Position numbers and translations under genes: made by a program
The notes under the pieces: model-generated
Database searches by the model: none
What the model saw: the letters and a program-made list of their open reading frames with translations, nothing else
Told to the model about the DNA's origin: nothing
Assembly: GCF_000016605.1 (NCBI RefSeq)
Contig: NC_009440.1
Location: 372,001-436,000 of the forward strand
DNA length: 64,000 nucleotides
From: Metallosphaera sedula DSM 5348
Lineage (GTDB): Archaea; Thermoproteota; Thermoprotei_A; Sulfolobales; Sulfolobaceae
Direction of reading: 5' to 3'
Shown: piece by piece, positions 21,873-30,203 of the stretch
How the letters are laid out: each line of letters starts with the position of its first letter
Numbering within the stretch: the first letter of the stretch is position 1

Positions 21873-24170
21873 TTACCTTCTCCTGACCACTGCCACAACA
21901 ACAGCTACTATAACAATGACCACTATCACTCCGGCAACAATTGCTATAGTTGACGTAGAGGATGTCGTGGTAGTAGTGGTAGGCGGAGTCGTTGTCGTCG
22001 TCGTTACATGTGATGCACTAACGTTGAGTGAACCGTATCTGAATAGCTCCCTTGCTCCGTTATCCCATGTTACCTTGCTCACGATCTCGTAAATTCCCGG
22101 TTTAAGACCGGTCGTGTTAATCGTCCCCACATAGTTTCCAGGTGAGACCATCTTCATCTGAACAGGGGCAGTCGCGTTACTATAGCCCTCACCGGACACA
22201 TTGAGGTACATTAGCCACATGTAGGCAGTTCCATTGACGGGGTTAGCTACAAGGGAAGAGGTGGCGTTGTCCCAGGTGTAGTACTGGAAGTTCGCTGTGA
22301 AGTTCACGGGGGTTCCAGCGGTCACATTCTGCAGGAAGATGAGCGGATTAATCCTGAAGTAGTATGGGTTATAGGTCACTGTCACTGTCTTTGCCTCGCT
22401 GTTGAAGGACGAGAACATGTAGGGCCCTGAGGATATCTCTGGGGCTAGCGTCGAGTGGTATAGTGTTACTACGTTGACTGGACCTATGGTGTGAGCTGGC
22501 ATTATGGGGTACTCAGTGAGGACTAGATACTCGTTAACGTATGAGGAAGAGTTGAGATAGAAGACTATCTGGTAGGGGTTAGTGACATTGGTCCACACTA
22601 GTGACGGAATTGTGCCAAAGAGGTCAGTGTTAATGAAGCCCTCGCTTGCCAGGTAGGTGTAGTTCAGCGTCACCCCGTCAAAGGTGTTAGTTCCCATCAT
22701 TCCGGGAAGGTCGTAATACCATACTGTGAAGTTAACGTCGTAGGCCGTGAGTGGAACTCCGTCTATCCACGTGTCGTTATGGACTAGGTTGACCGTAATT
22801 ACCTGACCGTTTACTATCTTTTCACCATTAGGAAGAGTTAAGTTAACTGGTTTCTGGACCGTCCAGGACGAGGCGACCCACGGGAGGACCTGAGTTGGGT
22901 TATTAAGTGGGGATATGCCCAGAGAGTCATACATGTCATCTAGGGTATTGAAGGCGTAAAGTGATGTACTGGCGTATATGTTTATATGTCTAGGCAGGTC
23001 ACTAGATATGGAGGAGAAGATAAAGGTTCCATTGAGGGCCTGATTCGTGGGGTGAACATCCATTATGTTTATTGCATAATTGGGAGTTCCGCTTGACAAG
23101 TAGATGTAGTTGGCCCATCCTGGCAAGTACACTGCCTGGATGCCGTTACTCCAGGTGTAGACCACGTAGGGAAGCTGCTGCTGAAGGAGGTATTCAGCTT
23201 GCATGGTGTAGTTTATCTCCTGCGACAGGGTAGGGGCATTTAGCGCGTTTTGTAGGACCTGATCCACGGTAGAGTTCGAGAATCCTCCAACATTACCCGG
23301 TGACGTGTAAATCCCGTTCATCCAGGAGTTGGGGAACGGACCTAGGTTGATCCATCCGAAGGTGGTCAAATTGAAGTCGTTGTAGGGTGGAGTAGTGGCC
23401 TGTGTAATCAGTGTACCGAAGGTCTCTGACACGGGAGTTATTGATAGGTTAATTGCGGCCGCGGAATCGGCTAGTAGTTCAGCGAACCTCTTAAGAGTGT
23501 TCGGTGGGTAGGTGTAGTAGAACGTTAACTTAAGGGGTTGATTGTTATAATACCATTGCCCGTTTTTGTGGGTTATCCCTGGTACCATCTCTAGATACAT
23601 CACGGCCCTGGTGAGGTTGTAGGACTCATACTGCTGGTAATAAGACTCTACCTGTGGGTTAAACCATTGTTTATACACAGCTAAACTCGGGTTAACGAAG
23701 TAGGGCTCATCAACGCCTAGTATACCGTTATCCAAGACGTACGACGTTACGTTCTCTGGGTTTATCAGGGAGCTTATGGCATACCTGAAGTAAATGTTTG
23801 ATGTCAGGTTATTTCCGAAGGCGAACACGATCTGTCCAAAGCTTTCCTGAGGAGCAATGGCCAAAAACGCAGTCTGATTATAGGGCGCTGTCTTCAACTC
23901 ATTGATCTCTGAGACGTGGGTAAGCGTGATGAAGTCGACCTTACCGTCTAGGAGAGCATTAAACTCGTCGGTGTGGGTTGTATAGGCATAAGTATATTCT
24001 ATTGTTCCGACCCACGGTTCATTATAGATGGCCTGTGAGGGTGTAAGTATAGGCGTATCGAAGTTAGCGATGGCGAAGCTTGAAACCTCCATTGGTATGG
24101 CCATAATCATTGAAAATACTAGGATTAGGCTTGCAAGAATAAACAATCGGCTCATACTCATATCACTCAT
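21873..24170 (-). CDS. ABC importer substrate-binding protein (family 5), apparently circularly permuted
   Basis: This is the extracellular binding protein of the ABC system encoded from 25.9 kb. It has an N-terminal signal anchor (residues 8-27), dozens of N-x-S/T sequons, a Thr-rich stalk near residue 725 and a C-terminal transmembrane anchor with a VVRRR tail. Domain order is odd: segments normally in the second half of SBP_bac_5 proteins (DGKVDFITL, YFRYAISSL, the alpha/beta region to LLQQQLPYVVYTW) come first, and those normally at the start (FNTLDDMYDSL, PWVASSWTV, DTWIDGVPLTAYDVNF, GPYMFSSF, NPYYF) come after residue 390. A small Ig-like domain follows at about 620-720. The TATA box TTTAAA at 24194-24199 is 26 bases from the ATG. 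Likely ligands: peptides or oligosaccharides. Confidence 0.85.
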   Translation of the reverse strand: MSDMSMSRLFILASLILVFSMIMAIPMEVSSFAIANFDTPILTPSQAIYNEPWVGTIEYTYAYTTHTDEFNALLDGKVDFITLTHVSEINELKTAPYNQTAFLAIAPQESFGQIVFAFGNNLTSNIYFRYAISSLINPENVTSYVLDNGILGVDEPYFVNPSLAVYKQWFNPQVESYYQQYESYNLTRAVMYLEMVPGITHKNGQWYYNNQPLKLTFYYTYPPNTLKRFAELLADSAAAINLSITPVSETFGTLITQATTPPYNDFNLTTFGWINLGPFPNSWMNGIYTSPGNVGGFSNSTVDQVLQNALNAPTLSQEINYTMQAEYLLQQQLPYVVYTWSNGIQAVYLPGWANYIYLSSGTPNYAINIMDVHPTNQALNGTFIFSSISSDLPRHINIYASTSLYAFNTLDDMYDSLGISPLNNPTQVLPWVASSWTVQKPVNLTLPNGEKIVNGQVITVNLVHNDTWIDGVPLTAYDVNFTVWYYDLPGMMGTNTFDGVTLNYTYLASEGFINTDLFGTIPSLVWTNVTNPYQIVFYLNSSSYVNEYLVLTEYPIMPAHTIGPVNVVTLYHSTLAPEISSGPYMFSSFNSEAKTVTVTYNPYYFRINPLIFLQNVTAGTPVNFTANFQYYTWDNATSSLVANPVNGTAYMWLMYLNVSGEGYSNATAPVQMKMVSPGNYVGTINTTGLKPGIYEIVSKVTWDNGARELFRYGSLNVSASHVTTTTTTPPTTTTTTSSTSTIAIVAGVIVVIVIVAVVVAVVRRR

Positions 24171-24367: not shown

Positions 24368-25528
24368 TCATGCTTTAACCAAAATAATTATCCCTTCCCT
24401 TCCCTGAGATGACGAAATATAACCTCCACCCAAAAGATAACCAGGAATTCCTATTACTGAATTAATGCTAGTGTTTAGCTTGGAGAAGACTGGTGATAGT
24501 GTGTATAGAGACGAACCTGATAGTATTATCCCCTCCTCTGAGGCTGTACCGGTGAAATTGTTTATTACAGGAATTCTTAGGGAAACTATGTATCTCCCAT
24601 CCCCGTAACCCACAGAGTTAACGAGACCCACCTCATACTTTAATGGTATGAAATTAGCCCGTGACCCATTTAGGAGACCGAGCATGGTGAGAGTTACGTG
24701 AGTGTTATTAAGGGAGTAATTGAAACCTCCAAATAACCATCCTGAGGGGGTTGACGCGGACGTTATCACGGCACCTAATCCCTGCTTACTATCCGTGAAA
24801 TTGCTTCCATTGAACAGCGTGACGGTGTAATTAAACAAATGAGATCCGCCTATGAAGGAGAAGGATCCATTTGAGGATATTGTAAAAATTCCACTACCCA
24901 CGCTAAGTGGTTTGTAGAGTGAGGAAGGATATAGAGCAGTTAGATCTGAAACGTTGTTTGAGAACTTGAGAAGGAAAGGTACCTGAAAGGTACTACTTCC
25001 CTCGATTACTAGAGCTGAGCCGCCGATCAACCAGAAGTTTTTCTGCCAACTGATTGAATATATCTGGCCAGGGATATAGAAACTAGGTATTTCACCTGTC
25101 AAGTTATAGACTTTATCCCCATTAATGAGTATCAAGGTTGGCTCCAGTATTGATGTGTTCTCCTGTGGAACGTAACGAGCTCCACCAATTAGGAGCGCAG
25201 ATCCATTGTAGCCTATTGCATAGATAGAGCCATTATCAAAATAATGGCTAATGTTGAACAGTTCATAAGAGTGATTTTGAACGTAAAATAGGCCGGCAAC
25301 TCCTTCTACATAATTGTGCGCAGAGGAAGAACCCACAAAGGCAATAACGTTGGGAGAGATCTCCACGATCTGATTAACCTCACTTACACCACTTATGATC
25401 TCAACTGAGAATGAGGTGGCTCTTATCTGTAAAAGTATAATGCCCGCTACTATGACAAGTATGGCTAATACAACTAATATAACATTTACAGATTTTTTCT
25501 TCTCCTTTTTCATCTTTTCATGCTTCAT
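24368..25528 (-). CDS. Secreted, membrane-anchored beta-propeller-like protein
   Basis: A basic N terminus (KHEKMKKEKKK) and one hydrophobic segment at residues 14-32 anchor the protein with its body outside. The rest is beta-rich and repeats the pattern small-x-hydrophobic-x-GG or GS roughly every 45-55 residues (ALLIGGARY, WLIGGSALV, SFIGGSHLF, WLFGGFNY, YLLGGGYI), as in kelch-like propellers. It carries many N-glycosylation sequons. No catalytic motif is visible. It sits between the binding protein and the permease genes of an ABC importer, so a role in ligand capture is possible but unproven. Confidence 0.65.
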   Translation of the reverse strand: MKHEKMKKEKKKSVNVILVVLAILVIVAGIILLQIRATSFSVEIISGVSEVNQIVEISPNVIAFVGSSSAHNYVEGVAGLFYVQNHSYELFNISHYFDNGSIYAIGYNGSALLIGGARYVPQENTSILEPTLILINGDKVYNLTGEIPSFYIPGQIYSISWQKNFWLIGGSALVIEGSSTFQVPFLLKFSNNVSDLTALYPSSLYKPLSVGSGIFTISSNGSFSFIGGSHLFNYTVTLFNGSNFTDSKQGLGAVITSASTPSGWLFGGFNYSLNNTHVTLTMLGLLNGSRANFIPLKYEVGLVNSVGYGDGRYIVSLRIPVINNFTGTASEEGIILSGSSLYTLSPVFSKLNTSINSVIGIPGYLLGGGYISSSQGREGIIILVKA

Positions 25529-25860: not shown

Positions 25861-26868
25861 ATGATGTCTCTTCTTAGATATCTAGCGAAGAGAATAGCTG
25901 AAAGGATAGCGTTGCTGTTTGGAATAATAGTCTTTAATTTTCTAATTTTTCAGGTATTACCCACCCTCTATGGCATAAATCCGGCTGAGCTTTACGTCCC
26001 CTTAACCTATAAGGGCCTACCAAGGAGCGAACTTGTTAAGGCACTGGATAACCAGTTTGGTCTGAATCTTCCTTTAGATGAGAGATTCTTTGTTTATATG
26101 AAATCACTACTAACCTTCCACCTAGGCATCTCCATGAGCTATCAACAACCCGTGATTTCGTTGATCGAGGCCAGATTCCCTGTAACGGCTCTCTTGGTTA
26201 TCCCTAGCCTGATTCTAAGCACGATCTTGGCATTGGTTCTGGGACTTTACTCCATATCAAGGCAGGGAAAAGTAGGAGACGTGGCTGTAAGCTTTACGTC
26301 AATAATGACCTACTTCATACCTGCCTTTTGGCTAGGGGAAATAGTTCTCTACTTCTTTGGGTTCTATTTCAGGATATTCCCGACGAATCTGGCTGAGGCC
26401 ATTACAACCTCAAATGGTCATTCCCTGGTGGGAATCGCGTACTGGGCCAATCTTTTAAAGTTCCTAACCTTGCCTATTCTTTTCATTACAGTGATTAGTT
26501 ACGGAGTTAGGAATATATTATTTAGGAATAATGGCGTTGAACTCATGGGTAGCAACTTCGTTAATTACTTGAGGGCAAGAGGAATAGACGAGAGGAAAAT
26601 CCTATACAAGCACGTAACAAGGAATGCAGTAATTCCCGTAGTTACAAGGGTTGGAATAGACATAGCCTTCCTGTTTGCTGGAGTTGTGTTCATAGAGGAC
26701 ATCTTTAACATACCGGGTCTGGGAAGACTTTTGGTGAGAGGTGCAGAGAACCTTGACGTACCTTTGCTCGGGGGAGACTTCTACATAATTAGCTTATTTG
26801 CAGTCATAATATTGCTCGCTCTCGATCTAATATATCCGCTCATTGACCCCAGGGTGAAGTATGAATGA
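25861..26868 (+). CDS. ABC importer permease, DppB/OppB type
   Basis: A 335-residue inner-membrane permease of the peptide/nickel (binding-protein-dependent) class. It has six segments; the first is FGIIVFNFLIFQVLP, followed by the long external loop usual in DppB. The cytoplasmic EAA loop that docks onto the ATPase is LRARGIDERKILYKHVTRNA, and the end FIEDIFNIPGLGRLLVRGAENLD is characteristic. Two adjacent ATG codons (25861, 25864) are possible starts. Its last four bases overlap the next permease (ATGA), so it is the first gene of a tight four-gene operon. Confidence 0.92.
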   Translation: MMSLLRYLAKRIAERIALLFGIIVFNFLIFQVLPTLYGINPAELYVPLTYKGLPRSELVKALDNQFGLNLPLDERFFVYMKSLLTFHLGISMSYQQPVISLIEARFPVTALLVIPSLILSTILALVLGLYSISRQGKVGDVAVSFTSIMTYFIPAFWLGEIVLYFFGFYFRIFPTNLAEAITTSNGHSLVGIAYWANLLKFLTLPILFITVISYGVRNILFRNNGVELMGSNFVNYLRARGIDERKILYKHVTRNAVIPVVTRVGIDIAFLFAGVVFIEDIFNIPGLGRLLVRGAENLDVPLLGGDFYIISLFAVIILLALDLIYPLIDPRVKYE

Positions 26869-28277
26869 ACAAGGTATTGAGAGACCTGCTAAGCAGGAAA
26901 ACTTTCATTTTCTCGGTAGTCGTAATCCTTTTCTTTGCTGCTATTGCCCTTTTAGCTCCAGTTCTAACGTCATACAACAATCCTTATCTAGTTTCACAAC
27001 AGTTCGTTGCGGCCCCCTACGCTGTTCCTTCGTGGGCCACAATCTTCCCTCAATATCATGGTCTTCCCCCTGACGTTAGAATGACGTTGTCTCCCTCTGA
27101 GACCTCAGGACTTACCCCCATTAACTCGTCCATGGTTAAGGTGGAGGTTCCTGCAGGGGGTCAGGTTAATCTGACTTACGCCATTAGATGGAATTGGAGT
27201 TCTCCATACAACGTACTTCTGTCCTTTACCCTAGTTACGCCATCTACAAGCGACTTTAACGTAAATCTTTACATGAACAATATCAACTTCATGGAACTGT
27301 CACCTTTACCGATACCTCCTGCAGTTAGCGTTACTCCCGGGAAGGCCAATTACGTTACCTTCTCTTCAGAAACTATAAACCCAAGCAATTCTCCGTACGT
27401 AAGCTCCCTTCCCTTCCAAGATCAGCCCTTAGCATCACTTGAGTTCCCCAAGGCTGTACTGCCTAAACCTGGGATATATTACCTGATTATATCATTCCAG
27501 AATACAGGAAATTCACCTGAGACTTTCCTTGTTTCCAACCCACATTACTCCTCTCTTGGTTACGCTTATGGTAGGTTGGGAACAGATGATAATGGCGCGA
27601 GCGTGTTCTCGGAGTTCGTGTATGGAGCGAGGTTCGATCTCTATTTAGCCCTTGTAGCCTCAGCCCTTATTATAGGAATAGGACTCATAATTGGGCTGAT
27701 AGCGGGCTACGTGGGCGGTTTCACGGATCTGGCCCTGAATGCTCTTACAGACTTCTTTCTGTTAATACCGGGTTTACCTCTCTTGATTGTTTTGATCTCT
27801 ATCTTCGATCTCACTGGGGTCATAGTTAACGTGAACAAGGCCGTCCTTATACTACTCATCATCTCGTTGTTATCATGGCCTGGGACTGCTAAGATAATTA
27901 GGGGACAGACACTAAGCCTCAGGAACAGAACCTTCGTGGAAGCTTCTAGGGCTCTGGGCGAGGGAAGGTTTAGGATCCTGTTCAGACATATAGTTCCCAA
28001 CCTGATGGGAATTCTATTTGCTCAACTGGCATATGACGTTCCAGGCGTTATCCTGGCTGAGTCGGGTCTCGACTTCCTGGGCCTGGGAATTACAGAGTTC
28101 CCGACCTGGGGAAACATGCTTGGATTTGCCACCAATGATTTGTCCTTTGCCAATGGGTTTGCATGGTGGTGGGTGCTTCCACCTGGAATTGGGATAATAT
28201 TGTTAAGTACAGCGTTCTACTATTTCGGGACAGCAATGCTTGACGTCCTTAGTCCCTACAAGCTTAGGGGTGAATGA
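26865..28277 (+). CDS. ABC importer permease, DppC/OppC type, with large external insertion
   Basis: The second permease of the importer. The N-terminal segment FIFSVVVILFFAAIALLAPVL and the C-terminal five segments with the EAA loop ASRALGEGRFRILFRHIVPN are standard for DppC, as is GTDDNGASVFSEFVYGARFDLYLAL before TM2. Between about residues 75 and 230 it has a beta-rich insertion of some 150 residues that normal DppC proteins (280-300 residues) lack. This part has many sequons (NSS, NLT, NWS) and must lie outside the membrane, where it could help dock the binding protein. Overlaps its upstream neighbour by 4 bases. Confidence 0.9.
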   Translation: MNKVLRDLLSRKTFIFSVVVILFFAAIALLAPVLTSYNNPYLVSQQFVAAPYAVPSWATIFPQYHGLPPDVRMTLSPSETSGLTPINSSMVKVEVPAGGQVNLTYAIRWNWSSPYNVLLSFTLVTPSTSDFNVNLYMNNINFMELSPLPIPPAVSVTPGKANYVTFSSETINPSNSPYVSSLPFQDQPLASLEFPKAVLPKPGIYYLIISFQNTGNSPETFLVSNPHYSSLGYAYGRLGTDDNGASVFSEFVYGARFDLYLALVASALIIGIGLIIGLIAGYVGGFTDLALNALTDFFLLIPGLPLLIVLISIFDLTGVIVNVNKAVLILLIISLLSWPGTAKIIRGQTLSLRNRTFVEASRALGEGRFRILFRHIVPNLMGILFAQLAYDVPGVILAESGLDFLGLGITEFPTWGNMLGFATNDLSFANGFAWWWVLPPGIGIILLSTAFYYFGTAMLDVLSPYKLRGE

Positions 28278-28278
28278 A

Positions 28279-29265
28279 ATGATCTTCGAGGAATCAACTG
28301 ATACTCTCCTTGAAGTTAACTCTCTGAAGACATACTACGCCACAAAGACCGGTTACGTTAAGGCCGTTGATGATGTGTCACTTTTTCTCGATAGATCCAA
28401 GGTCCTTGGCGTCGCAGGAGAATCCGGATGCGGAAAATCAACCCTGGTCACCACCATATTCAGGGTAATGCCTAGAAACGCTAGGGTGGTGTCTGGCGAG
28501 ATCAAGTTCAAAGGACAGGACCTGTTAAAGATGGACTTGAAGACCTTCAGGAAGGAGATAGTCTGGAAGGATATGGCCTACATACCACAGGCCTCTATGG
28601 ACGTATTGGACCCAGTGTATAAGGTTAAGGACCAGATGCTTGAGACCATCCTGGCACACGAGGACGTGTCAAGAGCAGAGGCGATGGAGAGGATATACAG
28701 GACACTTGAAAGCGTTGGTGTTCCACAGGAGAAGGCTGACATGTTTCCACATGAGCTCTCCGGGGGACAGAGGCAGAGGGTGGTTATAGCCATGGCCCTC
28801 CTCCTTAATCCCTCCATGATAGTGTCAGACGAGGCCACCACGGCCTTGGACGTGATCACTCAGGCTAAGATCCTGGAGCTCATGAAGTCTCTCCAGGAAT
28901 CCAGGAAGTTCAGCATGATGTTTGTAACCCACGATCTGTCCCTTTTAGCTAACGTGAGCGACAGTATCGCGATAATGTATGCGGGGAAGCTCGTGGAGTT
29001 TGGGGATGTGGAGAAGGTGTTTAGCAATCCACTCCACCCCTACACGCAACTTCTCATAAAGGCTATCCCAGATCTCAGGGTTAGAAAGCAGAAGAAACTG
29101 GTGGCCATACCAGGTTTCCCACCAGACCTGGAGAATCCGCCGAAGGGTTGCAGGTTTGCCCCTAGGTGTCCCCTAGCCATGCCAGTGTGTAGTGAGAGGG
29201 AGCCTGAGTTCGCTAGGGTTGAGGGATTCCATTACGTGGCCTGCCACGCGGTGAATAGGAAATGA
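28279..29265 (+). CDS. ABC importer ATPase, DppD/OppD type
   Basis: A cytoplasmic ATP-binding subunit of the peptide-type importer. The Walker A box is GESGCGKST, the Q-loop AYIPQASMD, the signature LSGGQRQRV, Walker B MIVSDEATTALD and the switch His in FVTHD. After the ATPase core comes the C-terminal oligopeptide-type extension with a Cys-rich stretch (GCRFAPRCPLAMPVCSE) that holds a [4Fe-4S] cluster in some homologues. I set the start at the ATG at 28279, five bases after GGGGTGA, rather than a frame-open start 39 bases earlier inside the permease gene. Confidence 0.92.
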   Translation: MIFEESTDTLLEVNSLKTYYATKTGYVKAVDDVSLFLDRSKVLGVAGESGCGKSTLVTTIFRVMPRNARVVSGEIKFKGQDLLKMDLKTFRKEIVWKDMAYIPQASMDVLDPVYKVKDQMLETILAHEDVSRAEAMERIYRTLESVGVPQEKADMFPHELSGGQRQRVVIAMALLLNPSMIVSDEATTALDVITQAKILELMKSLQESRKFSMMFVTHDLSLLANVSDSIAIMYAGKLVEFGDVEKVFSNPLHPYTQLLIKAIPDLRVRKQKKLVAIPGFPPDLENPPKGCRFAPRCPLAMPVCSEREPEFARVEGFHYVACHAVNRK

Positions 29266-30203
29266 TAGAGGGAAAAAGCTTAAGGGTGTACTTCAAGTCC
29301 AGGGATGTCCTAGTTAAGGCCCTTGATGGGGTAAACGTTAGCGTGAAGGATAAGGAGATTGTGGGCATAGTTGGTGAGTCTGGAAGCGGTAAAACTACCC
29401 TGGGAAGGACGATCCTTAACCTACAGAGACCGGACTCAGGAGAAGTACTCTGGAATGGAAAGAACGTGTTCAAGTTAAAGGGTAAAGAGGAGAAGGAGTT
29501 CAGAAGACAAAATCAAATCATCTACCAAAACCCGTATGAGGCGGTGGACATTAGACTGAAGGTTTACGACATAGTCGCGGAGGGTCTTAGGGTTCACAAC
29601 ATTCCCAAGAATAGAGAGGAGGAGAGGAAGATAGTCTTGGATACCTTGAGAGACGTTGGCCTTACGCCTGAGGAGGAATATGCGAAATCGCTTCCCAATC
29701 AGCTCTCTGGTGGACAGTTACAAAGGGTAGCTATAGCCAGGGCTCTGGTCCTTAACCCTTCCTTCATGGTCGCAGACGAACCGGTGTCCATGCTAGATAT
29801 GTCCATAAGGGCCGGAGTTCTGGACATTTTTAAGCGTCTCAGAGATGAGAGGGGGATAAGTATAATGATGATTACCCACGACATCTCAACCCTGGGATAC
29901 GTAGCGGACAGGATATACGTAATGTATCAGGGGAAGGTTATAGAACATGGTTCCACGGATGCCGTTCTAGATAAACCCCTTCATCCCTACACTCAGGGCT
30001 TAATCTCAGCCGTTCCAATTCCCGACCCATCAGGTAGGGCAAGTCTGTTCTCCGTGAAGGTGAAGGAGGAAACTGAGCCCTATAACGGGAAAGGATGCAA
30101 ATACTATCCGAAATGTCCCTTTGCCATGGCCTCCTGCAGGGAAAAAGAACCAGAATTATCGGGTGTATCCAGTGACCACTACGTCGCATGCTTCCTATAC
30201 TGA
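29262..30203 (+). CDS. ABC importer ATPase, DppF/OppF type
   Basis: The second ATP-binding subunit, overlapping the first by 4 bases. The Walker A box is GESGSGKTT, signature LSGGQLQRV, Walker B FMVADEPVSMLD and switch ITHD. The C-terminal extension again has a Cys cluster, GCKYYPKCPFAMASC, as in the partner. With the two permeases and the binding protein this completes a five-part importer energised by a heterodimeric ATPase. Confidence 0.92.
   Translation: MIEGKSLRVYFKSRDVLVKALDGVNVSVKDKEIVGIVGESGSGKTTLGRTILNLQRPDSGEVLWNGKNVFKLKGKEEKEFRRQNQIIYQNPYEAVDIRLKVYDIVAEGLRVHNIPKNREEERKIVLDTLRDVGLTPEEEYAKSLPNQLSGGQLQRVAIARALVLNPSFMVADEPVSMLDMSIRAGVLDIFKRLRDERGISIMMITHDISTLGYVADRIYVMYQGKVIEHGSTDAVLDKPLHPYTQGLISAVPIPDPSGRASLFSVKVKEETEPYNGKGCKYYPKCPFAMASCREKEPELSGVSSDHYVACFLY

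Follow-up and report, generated by a model that had tools for sequence, protein, structure and literature searches.

The 765-amino acid protein encoded on the reverse strand at positions 24170 to 21873 of the window (the whole 64,000-nucleotide stretch of Metallosphaera sedula DNA that was analysed) is very probably the surface receptor of a DppBCDF importer, with a substrate-binding protein (SBP) core of family 5 that is circularly permuted. A Pfam search matched positions 152-365 of the SBP_bac_5 profile PF00496 to residues 58-292 of the protein (whole-protein E 4.5e-25), and a profile search of the genome placed positions 2-156 later in the same open reading frame, at residues ~428-631 (genome 394278-394889). 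With a score of 89 bits against a curated cut-off of 32.4, the protein belongs to the family, and each of the two parts passes the cut-off alone (51.5 and 47 bits). The ordinary N-to-C order of the profile is not the one found, since positions 152-365 come before positions 2-156, and because of this swap the protein was filed as a permuted variant of SBP_bac_5. The same arrangement was obtained with a hidden Markov model (HMM) built from 38 ordinary archaeal SBPs: residues 62-358 correspond to positions 254-531 (E 2e-23) and are followed by residues 392-609, which correspond to positions 62-245 (E 7e-14). Searched with this ordinary-order HMM, ordinary proteins gave a single unbroken diagonal, and swapped pairs were found in dozens of relatives of the 765-aa protein. 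The reverse search, in which a profile of the permuted family was run on the ordinary protein L089, aligned residues 119-212 with profile positions 447-527 and residues 256-529 with positions 60-341; swapped segments were also recovered on a second ordinary protein, L034. The original prediction, that the protein is a circular permutation of a family 5 SBP and that comparison with ordinary SBPs would give two swapped diagonals, was thus borne out by Pfam, by the ordinary-order HMM and by profile searches in both directions.

The protein begins with a signal peptide or hydrophobic segment (residues 1-30, 24081..24170, reverse strand, as are all parts of this gene), identified from the sequence and conserved in 22 aligned orthologues. 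The first part of the core, at residues 48-376 (23043..24029), is the ancestral C-terminal portion of the SBP_bac_5 fold, as delimited by PF00496, the ordinary-order HMM and superposition on DppA. The ancestral N-terminal part is now second, at residues 385-612 (22335..23018), delimited by PF00496 and the HMM, and its last residues are NPYYF. Between the two lies a new junction that connects the ancestral C terminus to the ancestral N terminus (residues 365-392, 22995..23078) and is conserved and collinear across the proteins that share this arrangement, hereafter type A. The breakpoint of type A falls at positions ~245-250 of the ordinary-order HMM, and in the 765-aa protein it lies where it had been proposed, after NPYYF and ahead of the strand that normally comes next. 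In the 765-aa protein each of the two parts occurs once, without overlap. The break is seamless, since across 40 type A proteins the segment ends meet within a median of 1.5 positions of the profile (from -26 to +23), and therefore little was duplicated or lost. Downstream of the core we found the three additions that had been anticipated, an Ig-like beta domain (residues 613-718, 22017..22334), a Thr-rich stalk (residues 722-745, 21936..22007) and a C-terminal transmembrane anchor (residues 746-764, 21879..21935) followed by RRR. The stalk and the anchor were read from the sequence; the Ig-like stretch, for which no Pfam match was found, was assigned from a run of beta strands, with pLDDT mostly 60-90, in a first AlphaFold2 model. 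Of the type A proteins, 69 of 75 scored positive for a C-terminal transmembrane segment, compared with 14 of 56 ordinary ones.

To the extent that structure prediction can tell, the swapped parts form one compact SBP fold with relocated termini, as had been envisaged. The first AlphaFold2 model, built on 22 close sequences, was otherwise poor (pLDDT 44.6) and served solely to assign the Ig-like strands. A second model, of residues 28-625, was predicted as one confident domain (pLDDT 88.5, pTM 0.88) from an alignment of 77 rows, comprising 37 whole type A proteins and halves of ordinary SBPs; the ordinary-protein rows help the fold of each half, and the arrangement of the halves is informed only by the type A rows. 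With VIA-align, residues 21-348 of this model (48-375 of the protein) superposed on DppA 205-507 (Z 24.9, rmsd 3.3), and comparable superpositions were obtained on AppA, NikZ and OppA; on DppA, OppA and AppA, the first ~330 residues lie on the last ~300 (Z ~25). The top Foldseek match was AppA (1xoc, E 2e-17). Both programs are sequential and match the first part only, and the second part was assigned by sequence profile alone. In the predicted model the two-lobed cluster C fold is retained with moved termini. When the type A profile was compared with the PDB, all 60 solved relatives listed had the ordinary order, and none had the permuted arrangement; in the matches listed, profile positions 44-350 correspond to chain residues ~190-510 and positions 355-576 to residues ~5-247.

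The gene stands beside an Opp/Dpp-type transporter neighbourhood, with dppB, dppC, dppD and dppF on the forward strand at 25861-30203. A 386-aa protein with one N-terminal transmembrane segment and no family match is encoded on the reverse strand at 24368..25528; in most of the Sulfolobaceae loci read (L075, L076, L077, L081, L035 and L037) its gene is conserved at this place, separating the SBP gene from dppB, and it is missing from L036 and from the surroundings of a more distant type (L078-L080). The DppB-type permease (25861..26868) carries PF00528 and PF19300, and the DppC-type permease of 470 aa (26865..28277) has OppC_N at residues 4-39 and PF00528 at 273-463. The DppD-type (28240..29265) and DppF-type (29262..30203) ATPases were recognized by sequence and are conserved neighbours in most other loci. 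Among loci with enough flank, the permuted genes adjoin dppB and dppC, mostly together with dppD and dppF, and usually no second SBP for the Dpp set stands beside them; in L078 and L080 the Dpp set is 3-6 kb away from the permuted gene.

The DppC of this set is unusually built. Paralogue alignment showed that only the part of the 470-aa protein from residue ~229 onwards is matched by the two DppC paralogues of the same genome (296 and 308 aa), which delimits an additional insert spanning roughly residues 40-235 (window ~26982-27569, forward strand). This insert of ~170-200 aa, between the first transmembrane segment and the permease core, is probably extracellular, and it accompanies nearly all type A SBPs. 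DppC measures 452-619 aa beside 46 of 47 type A proteins, the sole exception being L234 (337 aa), and 265-344 aa beside all 27 ordinary SBPs. Analysis of the DppC-length correlation by independent contrasts yielded only two supported pairs, so that significance cannot be claimed, and shared ancestry accounts for much of the DppC and anchor correlations. These data do no more than suggest a joint change of segment order, tether and permease.

Near full-length orthologues with the same segment order were found in 23 of 31 Sulfolobaceae genomes, and close relatives include that of Metallosphaera javensis (95% identity). Purifying selection is strong in all segments (dN/dS did not exceed 0.14 wherever an estimate of dS was possible). 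The type A breakpoint recurs in many Thermoproteota families outside the Sulfolobaceae, with alignments that are collinear across the junction. A PF00496 survey indicated that roughly 30 of 61 Thermoproteota genomes hold a permuted protein, some of these being inferred where only the ancestral C-terminal half at the protein start was detected. No relative of the 765-aa protein was found on plasmids. Permutation is a phylum-wide class in the Thermoproteota, with several breakpoints, of which the 765-aa protein is one member. A genome of another Sulfolobaceae genus, G155, has only a 297-aa remnant of the protein (G155:C1:2267037-2267822), near which lies a different, long type A SBP of 897 aa with a 452-aa DppC (L236:14679-17369). 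A 661-aa paralogue (G136:C1:2502744-2504438) matches only residues 225-748 of the permuted family, its first part being divergent or lost. At L233:6151-10990, a pair of adjoining SBP genes, type A-like and divergent, with products of 820 and 759 aa, lies beside Dpp ATPase genes.

Besides type A, three further classes were distinguished by sequence order along the ordinary-order HMM. Type B (L073, L074, L221 and L222) runs from positions ~380-529 to ~45-386, with its breakpoint at ~380; type C (L140, L146 and L147) runs from ~303-538 to ~45-308, with its breakpoint at ~303; and type D (L120/L231 and L237) runs from ~457-535 to ~51-460, with its breakpoint at ~457. Like type A, these are permuted family 5 proteins of Thermoproteota encoded beside Dpp permeases, but their breakpoints differ. 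DppC is 287-308 aa long in loci of types B and C. A type A-like group with an N-terminal anchor (L129-L131, named An), which was separated from type A after the first tree had been seen, clusters in trees with type D, apart from the main type A; DppC reaches 357-435 aa in An and D loci. Approximately unbiased (AU) tests on 34 re-linearised sequences (LG+G4) rejected a single clade of all permuted proteins (p 1.9e-15) as well as one clade of all type A proteins including An (L129 and L131; p 4.6e-57), but did not reject a single clade for the groups of the main type A (p 0.69). Four breakpoints imply at least four rearrangements, a number given only as a lower bound, as the deep branches of the tree are weak. 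Since the D (L237, L231) and An (L129-L131) breakpoints occur within one well supported clade, permuted SBPs may themselves be re-permuted.

The closest to a before-and-after pair is provided by genome G377, which holds two type A proteins (L062 and L063) together with a relative in the ordinary order, L219. The latter contains the type A segments in ordinary order, joined at residue 234 with neither gap nor overlap, and its residues 549-673 form the same C-terminal anchor module as in type A (E 5e-28); in the tree, L219 does not branch directly beside type A as its sister. The type B protein L221 also carries this module. An anchor module common to type A, to the ordinary L219 and to type B means that the core was permuted while the ends were left unchanged.

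The origin of the permuted gene would most likely be intragenic: the core would have been duplicated and the outer halves lost, with the signal peptide and anchor left in place. Among the loci examined, none carried a gene with two complete cores, as the intermediate of this route would be expected to have. A 2064-aa open reading frame at L238:3926-10117, considered as such a tandem-core intermediate, turned out to be a different fusion, in which an ordinary SBP_bac_5 core is joined to a thioredoxin-like segment and further domains with a C-terminal transmembrane segment. The permutation shifts the tether away from the ancestral terminus and places it at the loop that follows NPYYF, which we take, from what is known of DppA and OppA, to belong to lobe I. 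As for function and docking geometry, we infer that the 765-aa protein would be exported through its signal peptide and held by its C-terminal anchor, that a peptide or oligosaccharide ligand would be enclosed between its two lobes, and that the ligand would be handed to the DppBC permease while the receptor remains C-terminally tethered. The permutation may, as first proposed, set how the receptor faces the permease; the one observation that bears on this is the co-occurrence with an enlarged DppC.

Had two SBP genes, truncated or decayed, become fused, with halves that are non-functional or act as independent domains, a C-terminal half could likewise have come to stand before an N-terminal half, and the G155 remnant shows that decay occurs. 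Such a fusion is nevertheless highly improbable: order, junction and breakpoint are kept in the 23 Sulfolobaceae genomes and in many other families, all segments are under purifying selection, the halves are complementary almost without overlap or gap, and they are predicted to form one confident joint fold. The version with decayed genes, on which the permutation would have fallen, is refuted by the conservation and the purifying selection. Very unlikely, too, is the reading that the SBP core serves in a surface sensor or an adhesin and not in an importer receptor. The long Ig-like and stalk extension and the neighbouring 386-aa protein without assigned function would suit that role, but a complete DppBCDF set adjoins the gene, usually with no other SBP candidate for it, and both lobes of the fold appear to be retained in the model.

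Given a permuted receptor, we would put even odds on the permutation being real but neutral, inherited with the operon and irrelevant to docking or tethering. The AU test allows a single origin for the main type A, so that the correlations with DppC and anchor may reflect co-inheritance; independent supported pairs number only two, and a short DppC accompanies both the type A protein L234 and types B and C. Neutrality has to be set against the four or more breakpoints and the rejected single origin, which make permutation recurrent in the family, and against the D/An clade, which stands apart from the main type A and yet also has an enlarged DppC. A selective explanation, in which Thermoproteota family 5 SBPs were permuted repeatedly, at no fewer than four sites, by selection relocating the tether, with the DppC of type A and D/An gaining an extracellular docking domain, is a tentative and less probable proposal.

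DppA, OppA, AppA and NikA (SBP_bac_5, cluster C) are homologous to the 765-aa protein across the whole core and share with it the predicted fold of the first part and the DppBCDF neighbours; the protein differs from them in its swapped parts, its C-terminal Ig-like domain, stalk and transmembrane anchor, and in the insert of its partner DppC. The only natural permutation of a solute-, substrate- or periplasmic binding protein that we found in the open literature (subscription papers were outside the scope) is TpMglB-2 (Tp0684) of Treponema pallidum, designated 'Type Ic / Cluster Bc', for which the authors proposed tethering as the cause of the permutation (PMC4990184). Like the 765-aa protein, it is an ABC binding protein that is naturally permuted, tethered to the membrane and still two-lobed in its fold, but it is a bacterial, sugar-binding protein of cluster B with a lipoprotein anchor and a single breakpoint, and in it the first three strands of the N-lobe have moved to the end (PMC4990184), whereas the type A breakpoint lies elsewhere. 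The 765-aa protein does not fall into cluster Bc, given its family 5 profile, its cluster C structural matches and its other breakpoint. For family 5, no report of natural permutation was found in the open literature. Natural permutation, previously known from one cluster B sugar-binding lineage, is now seen phylum-wide and at several sites in the OppA/DppA family. Ordinary-order kin with the same anchor in one genome amount to a natural experiment in which folding, membrane tethering and the docking of receptor and permease can be compared. Permuted receptors are broken up or wrongly scored by collinear alignment and profile tools, so that the annotation of archaeal peptide uptake may be in error. 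Peptide binding has been published for OppASs (SSO1273) of the related Sulfolobus solfataricus, a transmembrane oligopeptide-binding protein according to the citation of Gogliettino 2010 in PMC4124505, and this protein is possibly of the permuted kind.
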